From a virus, in the IMG/VR virus record IMGVR_UViG_3300043446_000919, positions 1-29,070 of that record: a DNA stretch of 29,070 bases; one strand, 5' to 3'. Under the pieces are notes generated by a model, which saw only the letters and a list, made by a program, of their open reading frames with translations, was not told the DNA's origin and made no database searches. Shown here piece after piece: positions 780-29,070 of the stretch. Within the stretch, counting starts at the first letter, position 1; each line of letters starts with the position of its first letter. A program made the translations under genes and the position numbers.

Positions 780-1159
780 TAAGCACGACCCTCTGCCTTA
801 ATTCGCTGGGCAAGTCGAGTGAGATCTGGATCTGGATACAGTTCTGCCAGCGACATGATCAGTTGAGCAGTTGGGTCTTGTGCCAAAGGTGGAGTTGGTA
901 AAACTTCAGGGCCACGACCCGGGCCAAACGATGCACCATCAGTAATAGGAACATCTTTGTCTGGATTAGGTGTTGTAAGACTTAATGTTGGTCTCTGAAC
1001 TGGAACAGCGTTAGCAACTGCACCCATTTGTTCAGCAGAAACTTCAGAGGCTGCAAGGTTTACACCCGGTGCAGTTTGCAATGCCATGAGTTCTGAACCC
1101 TCACCGTATGCTCCACCCGGGATGTACTGAGCTGCTTGTCTTCCTGTGTACTCAGCCAT
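779..1159 (-). CDS. Hypothetical head-region protein, 126 aa
   Basis: The reading frame extends upstream to 1183, but the ATG at 1159 has a GGAGG 9 nt ahead of it and gives the start MAEYTGRQAAQY, so I chose it. It overlaps the upstream gene by 8 nt and the downstream gene by 1 nt (TAATG), so the three are co-translated. The protein is Pro/Ala/Gly-rich in the middle (about 45-95) and ends in a predicted helix containing LAELYPDPDLTRLAQRI. No recognised domain. A small scaffold- or connector-associated protein next to the portal is possible, from position only. Confidence 0.75.
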   Translation of the reverse strand: MAEYTGRQAAQYIPGGAYGEGSELMALQTAPGVNLAASEVSAEQMGAVANAVPVQRPTLSLTTPNPDKDVPITDGASFGPGRGPEVLPTPPLAQDPTAQLIMSLAELYPDPDLTRLAQRIKAEGRA

Positions 1160-1397
1160 CTTTCTTAGCCTCCATTTTTTCAATATCTTTGGACAACTTC
1201 TCCCACATATAACGCTTCTTTGCTTCGTTCACGGAATGTGAATGTACGATTCTTGAGAGAAGAGAGAAAAATTCTGTAAATGAAACGCTGATGTTGTACA
1301 TCAATGCAACAAAAGCGTAAAGGAAATCTATCTTCTTAGCAGGTCGGGCTAGGATAAACATATCGTCTATGTCATCAAACTCTTGATCGTGATTCAT
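1152..1397 (-). CDS. Hypothetical small protein, 81 aa
   Basis: An acidic N-terminus (NHDQEFDDIDDMF) is followed by a hydrophobic aromatic segment around residues 22-48 that could be one membrane or amphipathic helix, and a charged C-terminus (about residues 55-81) rich in Lys and Glu. A weak purine-rich site (GAAAGG) precedes the ATG at 1397. The 3' end contains the Shine-Dalgarno of the next gene. I do not recognise the family. Confidence 0.65.
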   Translation of the reverse strand: MNHDQEFDDIDDMFILARPAKKIDFLYAFVALMYNISVSFTEFFSLLSRIVHSHSVNEAKKRYMWEKLSKDIEKMEAKKDG

Positions 1398-1582: not shown

Positions 1583-3355
1583 TTAAGCGGCCCCAGTTAG
1601 GGCTGCTAATAGTTGTGACATTTGCGGAGATCCGCCTTGTGCTAGATCTGTCCGTCTTGAGAACTGACCGGGGCCAGCCACCATTTGGGAGCCAGCGGCC
1701 GGGGCCGCTCCCGGAACCATACCCATCATTTCAGGGGGTAATGGTTGCGAAGCACCGGGGGCCATCGCAGTCGCCGCTGGCTGTTCCTGCGGAGCAAATG
1801 CTTTAGAAACAATCTGCTCCAAACTTTCACCCTTTTGACGACCTTGGATAATGTCAGCGATTCGTTTAACCGCTTCTGTTGGGTCGCCACCTTGTGTTGC
1901 AAGCATTGGAATAGCCGTTGCATATTGCGATACGGCGTTGCGTAGAGAGTCACGAAGATCTTCGATATCAACCTTTTGTTCTTCTTGTGTGACATTAATA
2001 GAGAATGGAAGATTACGGCGTAGAAAATCACGGCTGATGAGTTTGTCACCACGAAGTTGTAATCCGAAGATAGCTGCACGATTAGGATCGAGTCCAGCCA
2101 TGAGACCATACTGAACATCTACGGTGTAATCACCCTTGATGTCACGAGATGGTGTGTAGTTTAGTTCGAAAGGTGTACCGTCATCGGTTCCACGAATAAC
2201 TTTTCGATCATTAGGGAAGACTTTCTCGTCTACCTCAAATGCAATACCGATGAGATTGATTAGGAATCTAGCGAATACTGCTTGTGCAGCCTTGACCTGT
2301 GAGTCAAAACCACCCATAAGAGCCTGTACACCACGACCAGTAACGATAGATGCATCGATCTGACCTGTACGACCTTCTGGATAACGAGATCCCATACGGA
2401 GTTCTCGTTCAAGATTAGATGATTCTGCGAATACTCCGCTAGGAAGTTCGATTGGAACTCGGCGGATTCTTTCTGGAGTGTTAGAACGAAGCAATGCATC
2501 AGGGCCAAGAGCAAATTCTTGGACATCTGGTGGGATAGCAATCGGTGCTTCTACTGATTTCTTCGCTGCTTCTAGTTGTAGAAGAGCAAAACGAGCCTTA
2601 GCCATCTGTACTGGAAGCACATCATCGAACTGACCACGAGCTTGACCATCAACAGTTGGGCGTTCTGCAATGTCAACCAGTACTCGACCGATGACATTTG
2701 GGGTATTTGAGAGAACCAGATTGTCAAGATCTGGGATAAAGATCATGTCTTGGTACTTATCGTGGTAACGAATCATCGCTACATTGGCGTTCTGTCCACG
2801 ATACTTCTGCTTAATCTTGTTTGTATGCTCTGGATACTGGTAGATAATCGACTCAACATCCATGATAATGGTTTGAGAAACGCAAGTTACATTGCCGAAT
2901 CGATCCTTGTCATAGTAAAGACCGAATGGATCGAGCAAACGAATGCGTGGAGTATCGGTTTCAAAGTCAATATCAACAATACCTGCACAGAACCCATAGG
3001 TGTAATACCAGTCTGCACCCTTATAGAACTGTAATTGTAGGTCTGATTTGTTAGCGTAATGGTTTGCAATGCGTGTACGGATCTCCGATTTACGCCTTGC
3101 AGAGTCGCTAGTCATGTTAGATGAAGAGCAGTTGATTGCAGGGAGTGGGGCTGTGACTTCCGCTAGGTCACGAGCTGCGATATCCACCATGTTTGCGATA
3201 AGTGGTTTTGGATATTCGTCAGAGAATTGACCAAAGAAAACATCCTGCATCTTTCCTTGGCGTACAGCAAGTACATCGGACATACGGCGATCACGATCCA
3301 TGTTACGGTGCTTTAGCCGTTGTACCTTTGCTGCTACTTCCTGTGGAGTAAGCAT
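1583..3355 (-). CDS. Portal protein
   Basis: A 590-aa protein directly downstream of the large terminase, the usual place for the portal. The ATG at 3355 follows AAAGGAG with 6 nt spacing, and this site overlaps the end of the terminase gene. Residues about 110-150 carry a pattern seen in many portals: ADWYYTYGFCAGIVDID, then RIRLLDPFGLYYDKDRFGN. The middle is alpha/beta, and the last 80 residues are rich in Pro, Ala, Gln and Met and look disordered, typical of a portal C-terminus facing the capsid lumen. The portal ring anchors terminase and is the channel for DNA entry and exit. Identification rests on position, size and motif style, not on an alignment. Confidence 0.82.
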   Translation of the reverse strand: MLTPQEVAAKVQRLKHRNMDRDRRMSDVLAVRQGKMQDVFFGQFSDEYPKPLIANMVDIAARDLAEVTAPLPAINCSSSNMTSDSARRKSEIRTRIANHYANKSDLQLQFYKGADWYYTYGFCAGIVDIDFETDTPRIRLLDPFGLYYDKDRFGNVTCVSQTIIMDVESIIYQYPEHTNKIKQKYRGQNANVAMIRYHDKYQDMIFIPDLDNLVLSNTPNVIGRVLVDIAERPTVDGQARGQFDDVLPVQMAKARFALLQLEAAKKSVEAPIAIPPDVQEFALGPDALLRSNTPERIRRVPIELPSGVFAESSNLERELRMGSRYPEGRTGQIDASIVTGRGVQALMGGFDSQVKAAQAVFARFLINLIGIAFEVDEKVFPNDRKVIRGTDDGTPFELNYTPSRDIKGDYTVDVQYGLMAGLDPNRAAIFGLQLRGDKLISRDFLRRNLPFSINVTQEEQKVDIEDLRDSLRNAVSQYATAIPMLATQGGDPTEAVKRIADIIQGRQKGESLEQIVSKAFAPQEQPAATAMAPGASQPLPPEMMGMVPGAAPAAGSQMVAGPGQFSRRTDLAQGGSPQMSQLLAALTGAA

Positions 3356-13762: not shown

Positions 13763-14591
13763 GCCAGTAAATCAATCCCGGTCTTACATCAGCTCGACCT
13801 TGTGCATCTCCGTCTGCAATCTGTACCCTCGATGGATCGATGAGTAGCGTTGCATACTTAGTGCCATCTGCTGAGTGTTCACCGAATCGGTTCTTGACTG
13901 CGGCAACTTTGAGTTGCCCATATTCAGGGTTCATTGCAATGGACAGAATCATCGAAGGCAACTGAGATGCCTTACCCAAGATTGCTCTTCGTGGTGCTGG
14001 CTTGTCTGCTTCGTAATCTCTTTGCTCAGACATATGTGTAAGAGCAAGGACACAGGCACCTGTCTTTCTAGCAACATGATGAAGTTCGGACATGATTGCC
14101 CTTATGCCTGACCATTCTTCCCCTGTAACGGACACGCAATTCATCAGGTTATCTATCACGACAAGTGCCGGTGCCATGCCGTAGACCTCACCATAGGCAA
14201 GGATCTCTAGTTCAATCGTATCGATGTCGGGTGACGGATCAAAGACCCACCTAATATGTGAGCCTTTCTCATGCAACATCAGATCGAAGAAGTGTGAGTC
14301 TTGATCTAGGTTCGTTTCTACTTGTTGTTGTGGTATCCCACTCAAAGCTGCAACGGTACGAAACATCTGTGTGATTGGATCCGTATCGGCAGAGAAGTAA
14401 AGCGTTGGTACTCCACTCTTGAGAGCGTAGACCAATGCCATAAGACTCTTACCGGAGTTTGGTTGCCCAGCGATTAGGCATAATTGTGATTGACGGAACC
14501 TCATCCCATAGCTCTTCAATGATTCCCACACATCGGGCAATGGTTTCGCTGATGAGTTTGTACTGTGTACTGCTTGAAGTAGGTTCAACAT
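13743..14591 (-). CDS. DnaB/RecA-like replicative helicase ATPase
   Basis: 282 aa. Walker A GQPNSGKS at 42-49, Walker B LVVID at 143-147, and a later strand with CVLALTHMSEQ containing His and Gln sensor-type residues. This matches the C-terminal helicase domain of DnaB without the N-terminal primase-binding domain, a form common in phages. RecA-type recombinase is less likely because of the short, domain-only layout. It stands between WhiB and the resolvase-like gene, with the primase two genes on, so it fits a phage replisome. Confidence 0.85.
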   Translation of the reverse strand: MLNLLQAVHSTNSSAKPLPDVWESLKSYGMRFRQSQLCLIAGQPNSGKSLMALVYALKSGVPTLYFSADTDPITQMFRTVAALSGIPQQQVETNLDQDSHFFDLMLHEKGSHIRWVFDPSPDIDTIELEILAYGEVYGMAPALVVIDNLMNCVSVTGEEWSGIRAIMSELHHVARKTGACVLALTHMSEQRDYEADKPAPRRAILGKASQLPSMILSIAMNPEYGQLKVAAVKNRFGEHSADGTKYATLLIDPSRVQIADGDAQGRADVRPGLIYWRGHEAI

Positions 14592-14896
14592 TATGCGGCT
14601 ATGCTTCGCTTTCTTTCGATATTGTAAATCCTACGAATATGTTTTCGATCATGTGCAGAAGATCCTCCCCAATAGTGGAAGTCTTCATTATGTAATGCCC
14701 AGTTGAAGCAAGCCTTCAATAGTGGACATTGACTACAGACACCTCGAAGAACTTCATAGTGACTGAAGTCTTTCTCATCGGTACAGAACATCTCTGATCC
14801 GATGGAGGCACAGGGTTCTTTGCCGGTGAATGCCGGGTACTTTGGTGTACCCGGCTCCACCAACTGAGCTAAGAAGCGTTGGCTCTGTAGTCGCAT
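14591..14896 (-). CDS. whiB: WhiB-family Fe-S transcription regulator
   Basis: 101 aa from the ATG at 14896, with AGGG 6 nt upstream; a TTG at 14920 is an alternative. Cys29, Cys54, Cys57 and Cys63 give the C-xn-C-x2-C-x5-C cluster of WhiB proteins, with an additional Cys38. The WGG turn (76-78) and basic tail (HIRRIYNIERKR) complete the family pattern. WhiB proteins hold a 4Fe-4S cluster, bind sigma factor region 4 and occur in Actinobacteria and their phages. The phage copy may redirect or block host transcription. It overlaps the preceding gene by 28 nt. Confidence 0.92.
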   Translation of the reverse strand: MRLQSQRFLAQLVEPGTPKYPAFTGKEPCASIGSEMFCTDEKDFSHYEVLRGVCSQCPLLKACFNWALHNEDFHYWGGSSAHDRKHIRRIYNIERKRSIAA

Positions 14897-15276
14897 TGCT
14901 GACCCTGTGGTCGTTGGCAAGCATAGAAAGCACGATAAGGCTTTCCACTTGATTTAGATACACCAGCAGGAACTAACTTTGCTGGTTCTCCATGCTTACA
15001 AACAGGGCCAGAAGCAGGGGCTGAGGCTACCTGATTAGCAGCACCACCCCATTTATCTGTTGAGATCACAGTTCCACCCAATGCTTGGGCGATCTGTGCA
15101 GTATTCATTGGCTGTCCTGCAAACGCTGTCTGCATCGCATTTAGTACAGCATCTGCACCAGCAGGATCCAAGGCTTCTGCTAACTTCTGTGCAAAGCCTG
15201 TGTATGTTGCATCAGCAATGACAAAGATGGTTCCATCTGCTGTCTTTGTTGATACTTGAAAGCCGAGTTCGGCCAT
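14869..15276 (-). CDS. Protein with C-terminal zinc finger, 135 aa
   Basis: N-terminal strands (GFQVSTKTADGTIFVIA), an Ala-rich helical middle, and a C-terminal metal site: Cys93-x-His95-G, FYAC with Cys120, and Cys128. The CxHG...YRAFYACQ...C pattern resembles GRF or topoisomerase-type C4 fingers that bind single-stranded DNA. It lies between the Cas4/RecB-like nuclease and WhiB, with a TAATG start. Probably part of the replication or recombination set; exact family not named. Confidence 0.7.
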   Translation of the reverse strand: MAELGFQVSTKTADGTIFVIADATYTGFAQKLAEALDPAGADAVLNAMQTAFAGQPMNTAQIAQALGGTVISTDKWGGAANQVASAPASGPVCKHGEPAKLVPAGVSKSSGKPYRAFYACQRPQGQQCDYRANAS

Positions 15277-16232
15277 TACTTTACCTCCGTGTGTTTGATC
15301 GACAACCGTACTGATTCTTTTCCGGCTGTCTTCTTTGGAACGAAACCCAATTTAGCAAGCACTTCACTTTCATCAATCGTTTGGCGTGGAGCCACAGTTG
15401 TCCAGTTAATTTCTACACCGGACAATGTACGACCAAAGACACCCTCAAGAGAAGATTTGAGTTCATCGGATTTCGCTTCGAGTTTCTTCAACTCGTTGTT
15501 GATTTGTAGGTACTCCAAGGCGTTGGAGTCAATGTTGGGATCATCAATCAGAACTTCTGACGGAGTGATTCCAGTTTTTTTTAGACCAGAACAACCAAGC
15601 TCACCGCTTGCATCAAAGTACTTGCAGTAGAACTGGCAGTAACTAGCATCCTTTCCGGGTGCTGGTGCTTCAGCAGAGTTCTTGATTGCTTGCAACCACT
15701 CAAGAGCTTCTTCTGCTACTGATCTGTCGTATGGTTCTGAGTGAACCTTGATGTCTCGTTCATCCCCATCTCTAGGAATTGCTACGAGGTTTACAGTATT
15801 GACTTCAAATCCCGATTCGGAAAGAAGTAAACCATAAACTTGAACCTGCCAACGCTGTTGCTTTGATGGAAAGTAATTAAGGTTCTTTGACTTAACACTC
15901 TTCCAATCCACAACTGCACCAGTAGATCGGACATAAAGATCGACATGGGCTTTAATCCCAAATGCTTCGACCTCTTGCTCAACGAGATACTCTTTGTGTT
16001 CTGGATCTGCAAGTTCGATTGCCTCTTCGATGGCTCCGTGGATTGCAGTACCCATAATTGCAGCGAGTTTCAACTCGTTGTTATTGGTTTCAGGTTGTTG
16101 ATTCAACCTGTACCAAACCTTTCTTGCACAACCACCAAGTTCTGATGGCCCGACTTGAGTCTGTAATGATCGACCTCGTGAAGCATCTTTTGCTTTGAGG
16201 AGATCAACTACGATCTCTTTAATTTCCTTCAT
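15276..16232 (-). CDS. Cas4/RecB-like Fe-S exonuclease
   Basis: 318 aa. RecB-family nuclease motifs appear in order: GTAIHG with His65, AHVDLY with Asp98, VVDWKS with Asp109 and Lys111, and QVQVYG (131 region). One Cys before the core (Cys35 in GGCARK) and three after it (Cys199, Cys203, Cys214) match the 4Fe-4S arrangement of Cas4 and AddB-type nucleases. The last third adds a coiled helix (ELKKLEAKSDELKSSLEG). Likely a 5'-3' exonuclease for recombination or end processing. No CRISPR array or other Cas gene is present. Confidence 0.88.
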   Translation of the reverse strand: MKEIKEIVVDLLKAKDASRGRSLQTQVGPSELGGCARKVWYRLNQQPETNNNELKLAAIMGTAIHGAIEEAIELADPEHKEYLVEQEVEAFGIKAHVDLYVRSTGAVVDWKSVKSKNLNYFPSKQQRWQVQVYGLLLSESGFEVNTVNLVAIPRDGDERDIKVHSEPYDRSVAEEALEWLQAIKNSAEAPAPGKDASYCQFYCKYFDASGELGCSGLKKTGITPSEVLIDDPNIDSNALEYLQINNELKKLEAKSDELKSSLEGVFGRTLSGVEINWTTVAPRQTIDESEVLAKLGFVPKKTAGKESVRLSIKHTEVK

Positions 16233-16974
16233 CTACCTTTTCCGTTTCCTCAGCTTCTGCCTTCGCTTGCATCTGCCGTTCGTATTCTTTCCAATACAAA
16301 CCATAGTACGCCACATCGAAACTAAATCGCTTCATATGTTGAGCCAATGCACCGGTGTGTGCAAAGACTTTGATACCGGCTTGCTTTAGTTTACGGAAGA
16401 AGATGATGTCTTCACCCACAAACTTTTCATTGCCTAGATCTTTCTCGGCAAAGAAAGATTGATCCGGGAACTTCTTGCGAAGTACTGGAACTATTGACTT
16501 GTGCATTAGAACTAAACCCATACCTGCTGAATCAACAGGAATGATCTCATTATACGGCATAGGATGAATGAAGTTCATCAAGTACTCATCCTCTGGATGA
16601 TCAAGGAACAACGCTGGCATCGGTGTCATCAATGTTCCTTCCATTGCCTTGGATACAAAGTACACCCCAGTTACGACAGGTCGTGCCATTTTATCGGCAG
16701 TATCCCAAAGCTTCTTCAAGATATCTGCTGTGAGAACTACATCAGAATCAACCCACAATAACCAATCAGTACCCACATGATCAGCCCACAGCTCGAGAAG
16801 ATCCATACGCTGTCTTGCAATCTGATTACCCTGCACTCGAATAGCATTGTTAATAAATATCCCATGCTTTGCAGATGTTAGAGATGTGTAAAGTAATCCT
16901 TCGGTAAACTTTCCATCAGTCATACCATTATCACACCAACCGATTGAAAGAGTTTCTTTGCTGCTATGCGGCAT
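16219..16974 (-). CDS. GT-A family glycosyltransferase
   Basis: 251 aa. A Rossmann-like N-terminal part leads to WLLWVDSDVV, where Asp76-x-Asp78 is the DxD metal and nucleotide-sugar motif of GT-A enzymes. FVGEDIIFFRKLKQAGIKV near residue 195 is the matching acceptor-side ED motif. The C-terminal 25 residues are Glu/Lys-rich. Cytoplasmic, no membrane span. It sits at the front of the replication operon, so DNA-base or protein glycosylation are both possible; substrate cannot be read from sequence. Confidence 0.8.
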   Translation of the reverse strand: MPHSSKETLSIGWCDNGMTDGKFTEGLLYTSLTSAKHGIFINNAIRVQGNQIARQRMDLLELWADHVGTDWLLWVDSDVVLTADILKKLWDTADKMARPVVTGVYFVSKAMEGTLMTPMPALFLDHPEDEYLMNFIHPMPYNEIIPVDSAGMGLVLMHKSIVPVLRKKFPDQSFFAEKDLGNEKFVGEDIIFFRKLKQAGIKVFAHTGALAQHMKRFSFDVAYYGLYWKEYERQMQAKAEAEETEKVDEGN

Positions 16975-21867: not shown

Positions 21868-22716
21868 TTAGTAAGTGATTGAACCATCACCATTGAATTG
21901 ATAAATATGCCAAGATCCTGATGTTGTATAAGTTGGGGATCCTGTAGTTGTAGATGCTGGCTTTATAGCTCTTACGATAACAACACCAGAGCCACCATTA
22001 GCACCATCTTTTCCGCCAAAGGTTCCTCCGCCACCACCACCGGTGTTTGAAGTACCTGCTACTGGGTTTAGTGTTGCATCTCCACCAGCACCACCACCGC
22101 CCGATCCACCTGCACCTCTTAAATTGCTAGTTCCAGAGCCACCACCACCGCCACCTGCATAGGTTACAGAAGTTCCTGTAATGGAAGATGCTGATCCATT
22201 TCCACCAGCACCACCATTTGCTGAACCATCACCTGATCCACCAGTAGCACCGGCTCCACCACCTCCGCCAGAAGCCCAAGAAACATTTGAACCGCCACCT
22301 GCATTACCTTGTGATGAATAGCCAGCAGCTCCAGTAGTGGTGCCGACCATTCCTGATGCACCACTTCCTGATCCACCTTGTTTTCCTTTGCCACCATCGG
22401 TGCATCCACCACCACCGCCAACAGATCTAATTGATCTAAAAATAGAATCTGATCCATTTAATCCATAACCGTTGACACCACCATCGGCAGTACCTCGAGT
22501 GCCACCACCACCAACAGTTACTGTGTATGTAGTTCCAACTACGGCAGTAGTGGTTCCAGTTCTAAATCCACCAGCACCACCACCTGAGCCATAACGGCGG
22601 CCACCGCCACCACCACCAGCAACAATTAAGTATTCAACTGATACTAAACGATCAGTTACTCCAGATATTTTTGATCCATTCTTAATGGAAGATGTAGAAA
22701 ATTTACGAGTAGACAT
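21868..22716 (-). CDS. Glycine-rich fibre/adhesin protein, copy 2
   Basis: 282 aa. N-terminal short region, then VEYLIVAGGGGGG and long Gly/Ser/Ala-rich tracts with GTTYTVTVGGGG, ending SGSWHIYQFNGDGSITY. The polyglycine sandwich style resembles phage receptor-binding proteins such as T4-type gp38 adhesins. It is a tandem paralogue of the next gene upstream, with the same start motif and end. Stop and start overlap (TAATG). Confidence 0.75.
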   Translation of the reverse strand: MSTRKFSTSSIKNGSKISGVTDRLVSVEYLIVAGGGGGGRRYGSGGGAGGFRTGTTTAVVGTTYTVTVGGGGTRGTADGGVNGYGLNGSDSIFRSIRSVGGGGGCTDGGKGKQGGSGSGASGMVGTTTGAAGYSSQGNAGGGSNVSWASGGGGGAGATGGSGDGSANGGAGGNGSASSITGTSVTYAGGGGGGSGTSNLRGAGGSGGGGAGGDATLNPVAGTSNTGGGGGGTFGGKDGANGGSGVVIVRAIKPASTTTGSPTYTTSGSWHIYQFNGDGSITY

Positions 22717-23642
22717 TAGAAAGTGATGCTCCCATCTCCTGTGAATTTGTAGTAACGATAACCACCAGATGTAGTAGTAGAAGGAGATCCTGTTGTATTA
22801 GCTGGTGGGAAAACATCTAAGTGTCTAATCAAAACAATACCTGATCCACCATTGCCACCTGTTTGTGTTCCATATCCACCACCGGTGTTACCGCCACCGC
22901 CACCGCCGGTGTTTGCTGTACCAGCGACTCCTGAGTTTCCACTACCACCATTGAATCCACCGTTACCGCCTCCACCAGAACCGCCTTCACCATTACCTGC
23001 TGAATTGTTCCAATGGCCACCACCGCCACCACCGCAAAAATAGTATGTTCCAGAAACATTTTGTCCTGATGTTGTTGCAGAACCCCAAGTGGAGTATGAA
23101 GAACTTCCTATTCCACCATCTCCATCAATGCCATCTGCATCACAAGTAACGCCAGCACCAGCCATGCCACCGCCACCGCCGCCACCTCTGTCGTTTTGTG
23201 CATTACCACCTTTGAATCCCTGAAGTCCTACATTTCCAATAGTGAAATCAGCATTCCATTGACCGGATCCACCACCACATCCGCCTACACGACCGGGGTG
23301 TTGGTTTGCACCACCACCACCGCCACCTAAAGCAACATCTATTGATAGTGAACCGCCAGTTATGCTTGAGTCTCCGCCAGTTGCACCAGATCCGTTATAG
23401 GAACCTCCAGATGCACCACCATTGCCACCGTTTCCAACTGTTACTGTATATGTAACTCCAGTTTGAACTTCAACATTTGATGCATAGACGAGACCTCCGC
23501 CTCCTCCACCACCGCCACCATCCCAGCCACCTCCACCTCCACCAGCGATAATCAATGCTTCAAGAATAAGTGGTGTTGAAAAGTCTTGTTGCTTAACTAA
23601 AGCATTAGATAAAGATGATTTTGAGAATACAGAAGTAGCCAT
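22716..23642 (-). CDS. Glycine-rich fibre/adhesin protein, copy 1
   Basis: 308 aa. Same layout as the downstream copy: LEALIIAGGGGGG, GVTYTVTVGNGG, many polyglycine runs and the end SGGYRYYKFTGDGSITF. Differences cluster in the Gly-rich loops, the part expected to contact receptor. The polyglycine DNA is rich in CCACC repeats (plus strand) and is a likely recombination hot spot between the two copies. Confidence 0.75.
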   Translation of the reverse strand: MATSVFSKSSLSNALVKQQDFSTPLILEALIIAGGGGGGWDGGGGGGGGGLVYASNVEVQTGVTYTVTVGNGGNGGASGGSYNGSGATGGDSSITGGSLSIDVALGGGGGGANQHPGRVGGCGGGSGQWNADFTIGNVGLQGFKGGNAQNDRGGGGGGGMAGAGVTCDADGIDGDGGIGSSSYSTWGSATTSGQNVSGTYYFCGGGGGGHWNNSAGNGEGGSGGGGNGGFNGGSGNSGVAGTANTGGGGGGNTGGGYGTQTGGNGGSGIVLIRHLDVFPPANTTGSPSTTTSGGYRYYKFTGDGSITF

Positions 23643-25869: not shown

Positions 25870-26772
25870 TTACCTCTTATAGTGGAGTCGGGGAGGATAA
25901 AGATCTCTGAGTCCAGCAGCTTCTTGCTGAAGTCGCTGAGTGTAAAGACCAAGGTAGAACCGAGCCGTTGAGGATCCTGCCCCAATAGGCTTAGTTTGAT
26001 CGAGCATATCTGACTCGACAGATTGTGCAGGTACTCGAGCTGCATCGATATTCATAAGCAGACGAGCCATGGCACCGTATGTAATACAGTCAACTGAACT
26101 TGATGGGAAACCTGTAACGGTTTCATAGACATCACTATCAGAAGTCAGTACTGATGGAGCTTTAGCATAGACAACCTGAACTGTACGACCCGGATCGATA
26201 GAGTCAAAGATATTGATTGTCTTGCCATTGGCAAACTCTGTTGTGTTGGCTACCTTGTCGGTATTGTAACGCCGAACATTAAGCCATTCTTTAGTTGATC
26301 CAATGGTCTGCCACTTAACATCAAGAACATATTCTGTAGTCGCTGGAAGCGAGTAGGTAGTTACTGCTGAGTTGAAGGAGAAGGTGTGGGTTCCTACTGC
26401 AAAGAGTTCTGGGTAGGAAGCCTGAATAGTATCGTTGATTGCATCCTTGATAAGTTTACGAGGATAGACAGGAGCAATAAGAACCTTGGCACTATTGGCA
26501 GCAGATGCTGCTGTGGTACCACGGAATCCTCGACCCCAAGGTGCAACGGTGACAGTCTTGGTTAGGTTATCAACCTTATCTACATAGATGAGTTCATCAC
26601 CAATCTCGATAAGACCACGACCCATTTGGTTGGTTTCATTCACAATAAATGTGGTAGCAGATGAAGTAATACCAGCCGCTTGATTGATCCAAGTAGCAGT
26701 CTCTTGTTGAGCTGCACCGCTTTGGATATTGAATGCAACCTTATCTACGAGTTGACCAAAAGTAATTGACAT
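25870..26772 (-). CDS. Tail adaptor or baseplate-type protein, 300 aa
   Basis: Begins MSITFGQLVDKVAFNIQSGA, then strands with NQMGRGLIEIGDELIYVDKV and helix PRKLIKDAINDTIQASYPELFAVG, beta strands, and a C-terminal helix LYTQRLQQEAAGLRDLYP. The mixed helix-beta layout and position just upstream of the fibre fit an adaptor or fibre-attachment protein. Start and stop overlap neighbours (TAATG). Confidence 0.6.
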   Translation of the reverse strand: MSITFGQLVDKVAFNIQSGAAQQETATWINQAAGITSSATTFIVNETNQMGRGLIEIGDELIYVDKVDNLTKTVTVAPWGRGFRGTTAASAANSAKVLIAPVYPRKLIKDAINDTIQASYPELFAVGTHTFSFNSAVTTYSLPATTEYVLDVKWQTIGSTKEWLNVRRYNTDKVANTTEFANGKTINIFDSIDPGRTVQVVYAKAPSVLTSDSDVYETVTGFPSSSVDCITYGAMARLLMNIDAARVPAQSVESDMLDQTKPIGAGSSTARFYLGLYTQRLQQEAAGLRDLYPPRLHYKR

Positions 26773-27041
26773 TATGACTCTCTTGCTCTTAGGGCAGCAG
26801 CAGGAGCCTTATCGGTTGTGCCACCAAGTTGATTACATACACCACGAAGGTCTTTGTAATTAGGTCTGGTATTACCAGCCTTGACATTCAAGGCACCAAC
26901 GACATCCAGACCAGTTGTGCCAGCCCAAGTGTTTGCAGCCTTAGCATCATCAACATAACTCTGTAACGCTGGATAAGTGCCACCATTAGCAAGACGATTA
27001 AGTTCTGCTGTAAATGTGCTTCCGTTAGTACCTGTTGCCAT
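26772..27041 (-). CDS. Hypothetical structural protein, 89 aa
   Basis: Contains FTAELNRLANGGTYPALQSY, then KAANTWAGTTGLDVVGALNVKAG and a charged end ALRARES. Similar layout (NGGTYP, KDLRGVCNQL) is seen in structural genes of actinophages, but I cannot name the family. It is TAATG-coupled with both neighbours. Confidence 0.7.
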   Translation of the reverse strand: MATGTNGSTFTAELNRLANGGTYPALQSYVDDAKAANTWAGTTGLDVVGALNVKAGNTRPNYKDLRGVCNQLGGTTDKAPAAALRARES

Positions 27042-27202
27042 TACTTACCCTTCCTCATAACTGCCGCATTGTCGACAAGGTTTGGATACTTACGACCTGC
27101 TGCTTTGGCACGAGCCTTAGCCTTTGCCTTCTGGGTAGGTGTTAGTTTGGTTGATTTCTTCTTTGGGTTCTTCTGATCCCAGAATGCTTTCTTCTTCACC
27201 AT
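27041..27202 (-). CDS. Lysine-rich small protein, 53 aa
   Basis: Begins MVKKKAFWDQKNPKKKSTKL and continues with KAKAKARAKAAGRKYPNLVD; ends MRKGK. Strongly basic, helical middle. One of four adjacent basic peptides (27041-27750) downstream of the Ntn-hydrolase gene. Likely DNA-contacting, internal virion or host-chromatin-type peptide. The GRKYPNLVDNAAV phrase looks conserved. Confidence 0.7.
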   Translation of the reverse strand: MVKKKAFWDQKNPKKKSTKLTPTQKAKAKARAKAAGRKYPNLVDNAAVMRKGK

Positions 27203-27471
27203 TTCACCTTATCTGCCCAATAGGCTGCTGACATCTTTCCTTTTGCAATGTTCTTTGCATGACGAGCCTTGAATGATGCTTGTCGTTTTGTTGGTTTCTT
27301 ATCGCCAGTAACACCTTGCTGACCGAATCTAATGGTCTTAACCTTTGATCCTTCTTTGGCTACAACCACATGAGATTTAGTTGGGTGAGATGGTGTTCTC
27401 TTTGGCTTATTAAAGCCAGATACCCCGGCTCTCTTAAGCCGAGGATCTGCCTTACTTCTTTTTTCCGCCAC
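27196..27471 (-). CDS. Conserved basic phage protein, 91 aa
   Basis: GTG start at 27471 inside the end of the preceding gene. Reads HVVVAKEGSKVKTIRFGQQG, then SFKARHAKNIAKGKMSAAYW and ADKVKW at the end. This pattern is one I associate with a conserved small protein of aquatic phages of unknown function. Basic, likely nucleic-acid binding or virion. Confidence 0.75.
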   Translation of the reverse strand: MAEKRSKADPRLKRAGVSGFNKPKRTPSHPTKSHVVVAKEGSKVKTIRFGQQGVTGDKKPTKRQASFKARHAKNIAKGKMSAAYWADKVKW

Positions 27472-27622
27472 GCTTCTTGCCCTTCTTGGACATTCCTGCT
27501 TCGGATAATGCTATTGCGATAGCTTGTTTACGGCTCTTAACTACAGGGCCTTTCTTTCCAGAATGAAGAGTTCCTGATTTGAACTCTTTCATTACCTTCT
27601 TGACTTTGGCTGGCTTCTTCAT
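27452..27622 (-). CDS. DUF6496-like small protein, 56 aa
   Basis: KKVMKEFKSGTLHSGKKG, then PVVKSRKQAIAIALSEAG, then a Lys/Gly-rich tail. This is the DUF6496 pattern found in many phages and mobile elements. Short, basic, one helix. Start overlaps the upstream stop (TAATG). Confidence 0.8.
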   Translation of the reverse strand: MKKPAKVKKVMKEFKSGTLHSGKKGPVVKSRKQAIAIALSEAGMSKKGKKRGGKKK

Positions 27623-27750
27623 TACTTCTTCTTTCCAGCCTTCTTCATGCCCTTCTTGCCGTATTCCATCATGCGTTCTTTTTTGCCCTCAGACTTTTCG
27701 TGCTTCATCTTTGCCTTTTTGGACTTGTACTTTTCGCCTTTTGCTGACAT
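27622..27750 (-). CDS. Lysine-rich small protein, 42 aa
   Basis: ATG at 27750 with AGGGAG 8-9 nt upstream. Reads MSAKGEKYKSKKAKMKHEKS, then EGKKERMMEYGKKGMKKAG. Basic, helical. The first 62 bases overlap the 3' end of the Ntn-hydrolase gene in another frame, so both frames are used there. Similar MMEYGKKGMKK peptides occur in other aquatic phages from memory. Confidence 0.7.
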   Translation of the reverse strand: MSAKGEKYKSKKAKMKHEKSEGKKERMMEYGKKGMKKAGKKK

Positions 27751-28330
27751 CGATCTTCTCCCTTTGAGTGATTACCTTGACTTTTCCACCTGTGTTTATG
27801 TCAAACGAAGCGGAAATCTCTATTGCTTTTCTGGCCTCATTGGCCGCTACCTTCGTATTGGTTAGTGAGATTGTTGCCCTCGATAGAGAACCTGCTGCAT
27901 AGGATCCACCAGATCCAACTGCATATATTCCTCGATCATCTCTACACCAAGAGAAGTCATTGTCTATCTGATAGATCCTGCCACGGATGCATATAAGGGC
28001 ATCAAAGCCAGCATCCTCATTTGGCATTCCGTCTTCCTTCTTTGGAGAAGGATCGTATCCATAATCTGCATACGCTTGACGAAGTGACGGAAGAAGATCC
28101 GTCATCATAAACTTATCTAAGTTGACCACCTTAGGTATCTTCGGTGGAGTCCAACTAAAGTTTGCTATATCCCCGGCGATTGCATCGCCAGCAAAGGCAA
28201 AGACATACTCGCCTTTTTCTATGACCTTATCCATACCAGTTGCTATGAACTTTTGGCTACCAGATACCATCAATGAATCCGCTGCTATAAGGCCCCAGCC
28301 TTTGCCTTGGATTCCAACGATGGTTGTCAT
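27689..28330 (-). CDS. HslV/proteasome-beta-like Ntn hydrolase
   Basis: 213 aa. After removal of Met1 the protein starts TTIVGIQGKGWGLIAADS, like HslV (TTIV...). Counting from that Thr as residue 1, Asp17 is in the exact HslV/proteasome place and Lys34 is the equivalent of Lys33. FAFAGDA follows the usual place of the AGxxxD-type strand; YAVGSGGSYAAGSLSRA matches the GSGG-x-YA-A motif that carries the active-site Ser; ANEARKAIEISASFDINTGG fits the C-terminal helix and Asp. A basic tail of about 23 residues is additional. These residues make a working threonine protease likely. No HslU/ATPase partner is seen. Position next to the capsid gene suggests a role in virion maturation, or host protein turnover. 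AAGGAA precedes the ATG at 28330. Confidence 0.85.
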   Translation of the reverse strand: MTTIVGIQGKGWGLIAADSLMVSGSQKFIATGMDKVIEKGEYVFAFAGDAIAGDIANFSWTPPKIPKVVNLDKFMMTDLLPSLRQAYADYGYDPSPKKEDGMPNEDAGFDALICIRGRIYQIDNDFSWCRDDRGIYAVGSGGSYAAGSLSRATISLTNTKVAANEARKAIEISASFDINTGGKVKVITQREKIDVSKRRKVQVQKGKDEARKV

Positions 28331-28332
28331 GT

Positions 28333-28605
28333 TTATTCCTTAAAACTATTGGTGTTGGCATCGAAGGCTTTACCAGCCATATTCGATAACTCAACAGCTC
28401 CTCGAATGTCTTTCATATTCGTTGTTGCTGGTTCAATGCCTTGGTCAATCGCTGACTTGTAAGCATTGAGTTCTGCATCCCAAGCCTTCTGAGACATCGT
28501 TCTCCTGCTATTGGCATCACCTGTATTAACTTGTAGACCTGAAGCTCTTAGGCACTCTCCCCAGTTTTCGTGATCTTGTGTGGGGCAACCTGTTCTACAC
28601 GGCAT
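28333..28605 (-). CDS. Conserved Cys-rich head-region protein, 90 aa
   Basis: Begins MPCRTGCPTQDHENWGECLR (Cys3, Cys7, Cys18), then an Asn/Gly-rich bridge and WDAELNAYKSAIDQGIEPAT. The CRTGCPTQDH...WGECLR start and W-D-A-E-L-x-A-Y phrase are typical of a conserved small protein near capsid genes in actinophages. Function unknown. Coupled to the upstream gene by overlapping codons. Confidence 0.75.
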   Translation of the reverse strand: MPCRTGCPTQDHENWGECLRASGLQVNTGDANSRRTMSQKAWDAELNAYKSAIDQGIEPATTNMKDIRGAVELSNMAGKAFDANTNSFKE

Positions 28606-28916
28606 TATGACCTCAATACTAAGAATCCACTATGTGCTTCATCCGATGCTGCATCGGCTTCCGCTTGAGTCTTTATTGTATATCCCAGACCCACTAAAAC
28701 ATCTTTAACCGCTTCGCTTACGACATGACTTCTTCCACCGAGAAAGACATAATCATATTCTTCTAATTCGTCTTCAGTTACTGCTCGAGATGTGGTTACA
28801 GTCGATCCATCAATCAAGACTGCCACTCCTCGTGGAGATACAACTCTCCTCCACCACTTGTCTCGTAGTGGGAAACCTTCCATCACTTGCGGTGGGTAAA
28901 AGGTATAAGTTGCCAT
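28605..28916 (-). CDS. Head-completion/connector-type protein, 103 aa
   Basis: First gene after the major capsid gene, with AAAGGAG ahead of its ATG. Beta-rich (MATYTFYPPQVMEGFPLRDKW..., VAVLIDGSTVTTSRAVTEDE) with a final helix ALADA-like region near residues 85-95. Could be a head-tail adaptor or capsid decoration protein from position; no specific family. Confidence 0.6.
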   Translation of the reverse strand: MATYTFYPPQVMEGFPLRDKWWRRVVSPRGVAVLIDGSTVTTSRAVTEDELEEYDYVFLGGRSHVVSEAVKDVLVGLGYTIKTQAEADAASDEAHSGFLVLRS

Positions 28917-28975: not shown

Positions 28976-29070
28976 TTACAGAGCTGATGCACCGGTTTCC
29001 AAACGGCAAACTGCTGCATCACGGAAGATGCCCCAGCCACCGAAGTACTTCCAGCCGAGTGCTGACTTAC
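28976..29070 (-). CDS. Major capsid protein, C-terminal 31 residues (cut by window edge)
   Basis: The open frame enters from the right edge and ends at TAA (28976-28978). It reads KSALGWKYFGGWGIFRDAAV, then CRLETGASAL. The GWKYFGGWGIFRDAAVCRLE style, with aromatic residues and a charged end, is typical of HK97-like or similar capsid protein C-termini. Head-completion proteins follow directly, which supports the call. Only the last 31 residues are here, so this is moderate. Confidence 0.7.
   Translation of the reverse strand, partial: KSALGWKYFGGWGIFRDAAVCRLETGASAL

Follow-up and report, generated by a model that had tools for sequence, protein, structure and literature searches.

A proteasome-like threonine hydrolase in the head-gene module of freshwater actinobacterial phages: a possible accessory head protease

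Introduction

What does a relative of the proteasome cutting subunit do among the head genes of a tailed phage? AAH and PPH are proteasome homologs of bacteria and phages, and tailed phages carry group I proteasome-like proteins whose gene context gave no functional clue (Fuchs, Alva and Lupas 2021, PMC8665760). The question is raised again by the record of an uncultured virus (29,070 bases), the whole of which is referred to here as the window. It encodes a proteasome-like Ntn threonine hydrolase of group I type with 213 aa (27689..28330, minus strand) close behind the major capsid gene. The evidence from family models, structure prediction, active-site conservation, dN/dS and gene neighbourhoods in relatives points, with a probability of about 0.4, to an accessory, dispensable late protease associated with the head, the mechanistic steps of which we infer. 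The enzyme is probably a useful extra and not the one that matures the capsid.

Gene map and host of the window phage

The 3' end of the major capsid gene (28976..29070, minus strand; frame reading ...GWKYFGGWGIFRDAAVCRLETGASAL*) runs off the window, and the full gene was read in relatives (307 aa in L006; PF13252, phrog_1357). Directly behind it on the same strand follow two small head-module proteins, p103 (28605..28916; phrog_8987) and p90 (28333..28605; phrog_10483), and then, after a gap of 2 bases, the Ntn gene, three genes after the capsid gene as the sequence-only reading had placed it. Further along this strand lie a Lys-rich DUF6496 protein (27452..27622; PF20106), a basic 91-aa protein (27196..27471; phrog_7595), a Lys-rich 53-aa protein (27041..27202; phrog_34011), the head–tail adaptor (25870..26772; PF24175 SU10_adaptor) and the portal protein (1583..3355). 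The slot behind the portal gene holds an 81-aa ORF (1152..1397) in the window and the Ntn gene in a sister lineage.

Because the window carries a WhiB-like transcription factor gene (14591..14920, minus strand; PF02467, 35.8 bits versus 23.6), which is an actinobacterial-host marker, the host is assigned to the actinobacteria, and the virus infects freshwater actinobacteria. The SU10-type adaptor points to a podovirus. The window shares its gene order with OX376640 (39,112 bases, assembly name LanE43-AprE7), with 51% identity in the terminase and 47% in the portal protein. OX376640.1 and OX376641.1 were deposited without annotation as 'Caudovirales sp. ct2KA10' and appear to be the Planktophila phages LanE43AprE7 (E7) and LanE43AprF5 (F5). 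The isolation paper gives LanE43AprE7 as a 39.1-kb phage infecting 'Ca. Planktophila' LanE-43 (PMC10202952).

Three other loci of the window deserve mention. The phrog_7595 protein (27196..27471) is 96% identical to its counterpart in E7/ct2KA10 at the protein level but only 78% at the DNA level, and these proteins of 84–91 aa are extremely conserved while the terminase is about 51% and the capsid protein about 43% identical. Two adjacent glycine-rich (GGGGG) proteins of phrog_2295 type (21868..23642, minus strand) behind the tail fibre gene likely belong to the tail tip. A protein that phage E7 also has (16219..16974, minus strand) matches PHROG 34859 'glycosyltransferase' (8e-112); since a methyltransferase family is among the Pfam hits in the scanned set, this annotation may deserve checking.

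Active site and family membership

The Ntn ORF starts with ATG behind an AAGGA-type ribosome-binding site, and its product consists of a catalytic domain (residues 1–190) followed by a basic C-terminal tail. The MTTIV start, Thr1, Asp17, Lys33 and GSGG motif named in the sequence-only reading are all present: Thr1 is T2, Asp17 is D18, Gly47 is G48, GSGG occupies residues 139–142, and Lys33 is K35 owing to a one-residue insertion. Thr1, Lys33, G139 and G141 are invariant in 110/110 distinct relatives. Position 17 is D in 99 of them and E in 11, and Gly47 and Ser129 (as S or T) are each kept in 108. The 'late acidic helix' of the same reading is there as a helix (residues 159–176), but one of mixed charge, and the protein ends in a strongly basic C-terminus. 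The median pairwise dN/dS of the Ntn gene, about 0.07, is lower than the values for the capsid (0.11) and scaffold (0.20) genes. The ORF is, on this sequence evidence, an active-site-complete enzyme under strong constraint.

A search with the Pfam model PF00227, which the sequence-only reading had proposed as a check, gives 24.5 bits for the window protein, above the gathering score of 22.4; L048 (25.6 bits) and ct2KA10 (25.5 bits) also exceed it. The PHROG 1040 profile 'peptidase HslV family' gives 93 bits (E = 4.7e-26), which makes the protein a direct member by score of a family whose name is silent on role. In a sequence search of the PDB, proteasome and HslV chains match only weakly (E about 0.05). 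The NCBI equivalog models of HslV score far below their cut-offs (NF003964, 28.3 versus 137 bits; TIGR03692, 25.3 versus 157.75 bits), which rules out HslV proper. Of the earlier label 'HslV/proteasome-like threonine hydrolase', the superfamily is borne out by PF00227, phrog_1040 and the fold, whereas 'HslV' by itself is too narrow, the nearest solved fold being that of BPH (betaproteobacterial proteasome homolog). No cellular relatives were found in GTDB genomes by an alignment-based scan, the peptide patterns of which were probably phage-specific.

Predicted fold and comparison with known systems

With 20 window or IMG/VR sequences as input, AlphaFold predicts the four-layer Ntn fold (pLDDT 85, pTM 0.80), in which two helix pairs (50–59/71–89 and 142–150/159–176) flank the beta strands. 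A Foldseek search of the PDB returns 1090 matches at E <= 0.001, and the 50 of these listed are all BPH, HslV or proteasome chains, with BPH ranked first, followed by HslV and proteasome beta. The structural comparison with HslV suggested beforehand places it among the best PDB matches after BPH. Tens of phage proteins share the fold. Given the HMM scores, the predicted fold and the invariant active-site residues, chance resemblance to the proteasome is ruled out. Sequence and model together predict that the gene product is an Ntn threonine hydrolase of the proteasome-like superfamily that is competent for catalysis, a real and apparently active relative of the proteasome cutting subunit.

BPH (5ovs, 5ovt, 5ovu) is the best solved-structure match (E 1.5e-10; TM 0.72–0.76 by target length for 5ovs/5ovt). 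The two have in common the Thr1/Asp17/Lys33 triad and a longer acid-containing loop after H2. BPH has a long acidic pore loop and lacks an unfoldase (Fuchs et al., PMC8665760). In the window model, the loop at about 90–110 has several acidic residues (about 92–110) and is the sole long low-confidence loop, placed after H1/H2. However, the window protein is only about 21% identical to BPH, is phage-encoded and has a Lys-rich tail. HslV (ClpQ) resembles it in the MTTI start without propeptide, the triad, GSGG and the fold. HslU/ClpX or another AAA+ unfoldase was not found among the 25 listed of the 28 Pfam families in the 34 proteins of the window and L006; host HslU could be a partner.

The window protein also resembles AAH and PPH, which are likewise group I proteasome-like and encoded by tailed phages. 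PPH is about 140 aa long and lacks helix H2 (PMC8665760); with 213 aa and both H1 (50–59) and H2 (71–89) predicted, the window protein is not a PPH. AAH, judged from its description, is nearer in size and has a compatible H1–H4 layout. Fuchs et al. met with no AAH in Actinobacteria-specific phages (PMC8665760), and the host group of the window phages would fill this gap.

The superfamily also contains the ligase connectase (PMC8665760), so that a protein ligase or amidase instead of a protease has to be considered. This is very improbable. Both helix pairs are predicted in the window protein, and its long low-confidence loop follows H1/H2, whereas the insertion of connectase lies between S3 and S4 (PMC8665760).

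The Lys-rich tail

A Lys-rich ORF of 42 aa (MSAKGEKYKSKKAK...KKAGKKK, pI 10.2; 27622..27750, minus strand) overlaps the Ntn gene at its 3' end, though in a different frame, and has a ribosome-binding site of its own within the conserved TQREK codons of that gene. In many window-lineage relatives, such as L048 and L040, the Ntn domain is fused in frame to the Lys-rich peptide, giving proteins of 235–259 aa. In E7-like phages, p90 is followed by a series of small Lys-rich ORFs (MPKVG.., MSAKGEKYKS.., DUF6496 and others); in the window lineage, the Ntn gene takes this slot, and its fusion partner is the first such peptide. The pI is about 10.2 for the fused tail, 5.5 for the Ntn domain and 4.7 for the scaffold protein. 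A programmed frameshift joining the two ORFs is rejected on the varying frame offset between relatives, the ribosome-binding site of the second ORF and a stop/start overlap in L015; judging from these sequences, translational coupling would be simpler. The fusion suggests a functional link, and binding of the tail to DNA or scaffold is guesswork. A basic tail is also present in the actinophage DSL-LC01, whose Ntn gene lies elsewhere in the genome. In the sister lineage, the enzymes encoded behind the portal gene lack a Lys-rich tail.

Small Lys-rich ORFs (DUF6496, MPKVG.., MSSG.., AYTKPELR..) also form a hypervariable cassette that separates the head genes from the adaptor gene of these actinophages, in the slot after p104 (L151:19581-20373; L194-L273), and may encode DNA-binding virion proteins.

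Presence, loss and exchange of the enzyme

In the window lineage, all 68 distinct contigs of one scan that include the capsid gene and extend 1.3 kb or more beyond it carry the Ntn gene, about 650–780 bp behind the capsid gene and nearly always at 644–776 bp. In the E7-like sister lineage, which includes the cultured phages E7 and F5, it lies directly behind the portal gene in 76 of 94 portal-bearing loci with a judgeable interval and is absent from 18, these loci being pooled from two scans so that one contig may count twice. Most IMG/VR records are fragmentary, and absence holds for the interval or record examined. Two near-complete gene-lacking sister records (37.5 and 37.6 kb) gave no match anywhere, while positive controls were detected. 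Nor was the gene found in FlowerPower and Immanuel3, complete genomes of Streptomyces Beephvirinae, which share homologous capsid (35–37% identical to the 307-aa protein of L006), adaptor (39%) and several late proteins with the window phages.

On the portal tree, the lack of the Ntn gene requires at least two changes and falls mostly in one clade. On the Ntn tree, the copies behind the capsid gene are not united in a single group, and L145 falls inside a post-portal clade (99/95 support), which implies repeated relocation or replacement of the enzyme. Within the E7-like lineage, where capsids are 80–85% identical, the mean identity is 36% for the Ntn protein, 68% for the scaffold and 73% for the portal protein, so that, of the head-module proteins of this lineage, the enzyme diverges fastest or is exchanged most often.

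Gene displacement is seen in L140 (5656-6186) and L145 (5697-6272), the capsids of which are 81–84% identical to those of the window lineage while their Ntn proteins, in the same slot but without the Lys-rich tail, are only about 37–50% identical to the queries. A protein of 75–88 aa occupies the Ntn slot between portal and g147 in L206, L237, L241, L257 and others (9/10 without the Ntn gene, 0/44 with it); because the gene-lacking phages are mainly one clade, this mutual exclusion is not independent evidence. No other gene content was associated with Ntn presence.

Is the enzyme a capsid-maturation protease?

The sequence-only reading had raised the possibility of an uncommon maturation enzyme. 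According to such a model, the basic tail would recruit the enzyme to the acidic scaffold in the procapsid, where it would digest scaffold or internal proteins before packaging and replace the usual serine proteases. The head-module position in both lineages, the constancy of the gene in the window lineage (68/68) and the charges of scaffold and tail are in line with this model. Furthermore, the post-portal position in E7/F5 relatives is the usual slot of classical prohead proteases (U35, S14-like, S49-like and T4 gp21 type), and no second protease appears among the Pfam families listed for the window and L006 (25 of 28 families, 34 proteins).

However, the enzyme differs from classical prohead proteases in its unrelated fold and chemistry and in the lack of a capsid delta domain. 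The capsid proteins align from residue 1 whether or not their lineage carries the gene, with no N-terminal extension, propeptide or delta domain, and a separate acidic scaffold gene precedes the capsid gene; neither a cleavable capsid extension nor a fused scaffold is found. A prohead protease gene is expected wherever its capsid system occurs, whereas this one is lacking in close relatives whose portal, scaffold and capsid genes are homologous, as well as in the Beephvirinae, and the one near-complete gene-lacking genome scanned has no other recognised protease. The enzyme also outpaces the capsid and scaffold proteins in divergence or in swapping. For these reasons, an obligatory capsid-maturation protease is unlikely, being weakened by the absence of the gene in relatives, and a prohead protease acting on scaffold or internal proteins remains rather improbable.

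An accessory head-associated protease

The enzyme could also act late in the cytoplasm without being packaged, degrading host, defence or misfolded proteins or recycling amino acids, and its place among the head genes would reflect late expression only. Homologs in DSL-LC01, Psychrobacter phage D'Alembert and Vibrio phages lie among non-structural genes, and several PHROG 1040 members sit outside head modules, unlike the window gene. Gain, loss and swapping would suit such a role, and the E7/F5 description lists genes for host-protein degradation (PMC10202952). However, the constancy of head-module placement and the fusion to Lys-rich head-module peptides would then be coincidental, and we regard a purely cytoplasmic role as doubtful.

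An accessory protease associated with the head is favoured because the fold is well predicted (pLDDT 85), Thr1 and Lys33 are invariant and dN/dS is lower than that of the capsid gene, and because the gene is placed in the head module in both lineages (68/68 behind the capsid, 76/94 behind the portal) with a Lys-rich peptide that is fused, overlapping or coupled. That it is accessory is indicated by its loss at least twice, its swapping and its identity of about 36% where capsids are 80–85% identical. Only the constant placement and the tail lead us to prefer head association to the cytoplasmic role. The tail-less post-portal members of the sister lineage count against an accessory head-associated protease, as does the presence of the gene in every window-lineage contig tested, which would be expected of an essential gene.

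The following sequence of events may be envisaged. The enzyme would be synthesised late, alongside the head proteins, and removal of Met1 by host methionine aminopeptidase would expose Thr1 as the nucleophile. The subunits would assemble into rings that act without the help of a dedicated AAA+ unfoldase. The basic tail may bind DNA or the acidic scaffold and so place the enzyme in the head, where it would most likely be ejected with the DNA or act on unfolded or host proteins. The Lys-rich tail lends plausibility to retention in the virion, which the sequence-only reading had mentioned. We know of no precedent for the ejection of a ring-forming protease.

Conclusion and perspectives

Phage proteasome homologs are already known (Fuchs 2021, PMC8665760), and PHROG 1040 and several GenBank annotations name such genes. 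What is new is the linkage to the head module, seen in two slots, together with the fusion to the Lys-rich tail and the pattern of loss and swapping. In the literature searched, neither head-module linkage or tail fusion of phage proteasome homologs nor an Ntn prohead protease was found. The main text of the E7/F5 isolation paper does not mention HslV, proteasome or peptidase (PMC10202952), and Kavagutti 2019 (PMC6802176) does not mention protease, peptidase or podovirus.

It is a tentative idea that freshwater-actinobacterial phages carry a proteasome-type protease in the virion head by means of a Lys-rich tail, to be injected with the DNA or to clear the scaffold. Phage proteasome homologs had no functional clue, and in a large actinophage group the enzyme is now linked with the head module, in two different slots, and with a Lys-rich peptide. 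Because the relatives E7 and F5 are in culture on 'Ca. Planktophila' LanE-43, a virion or head-assembly role of a threonine protease could be quickly addressed.
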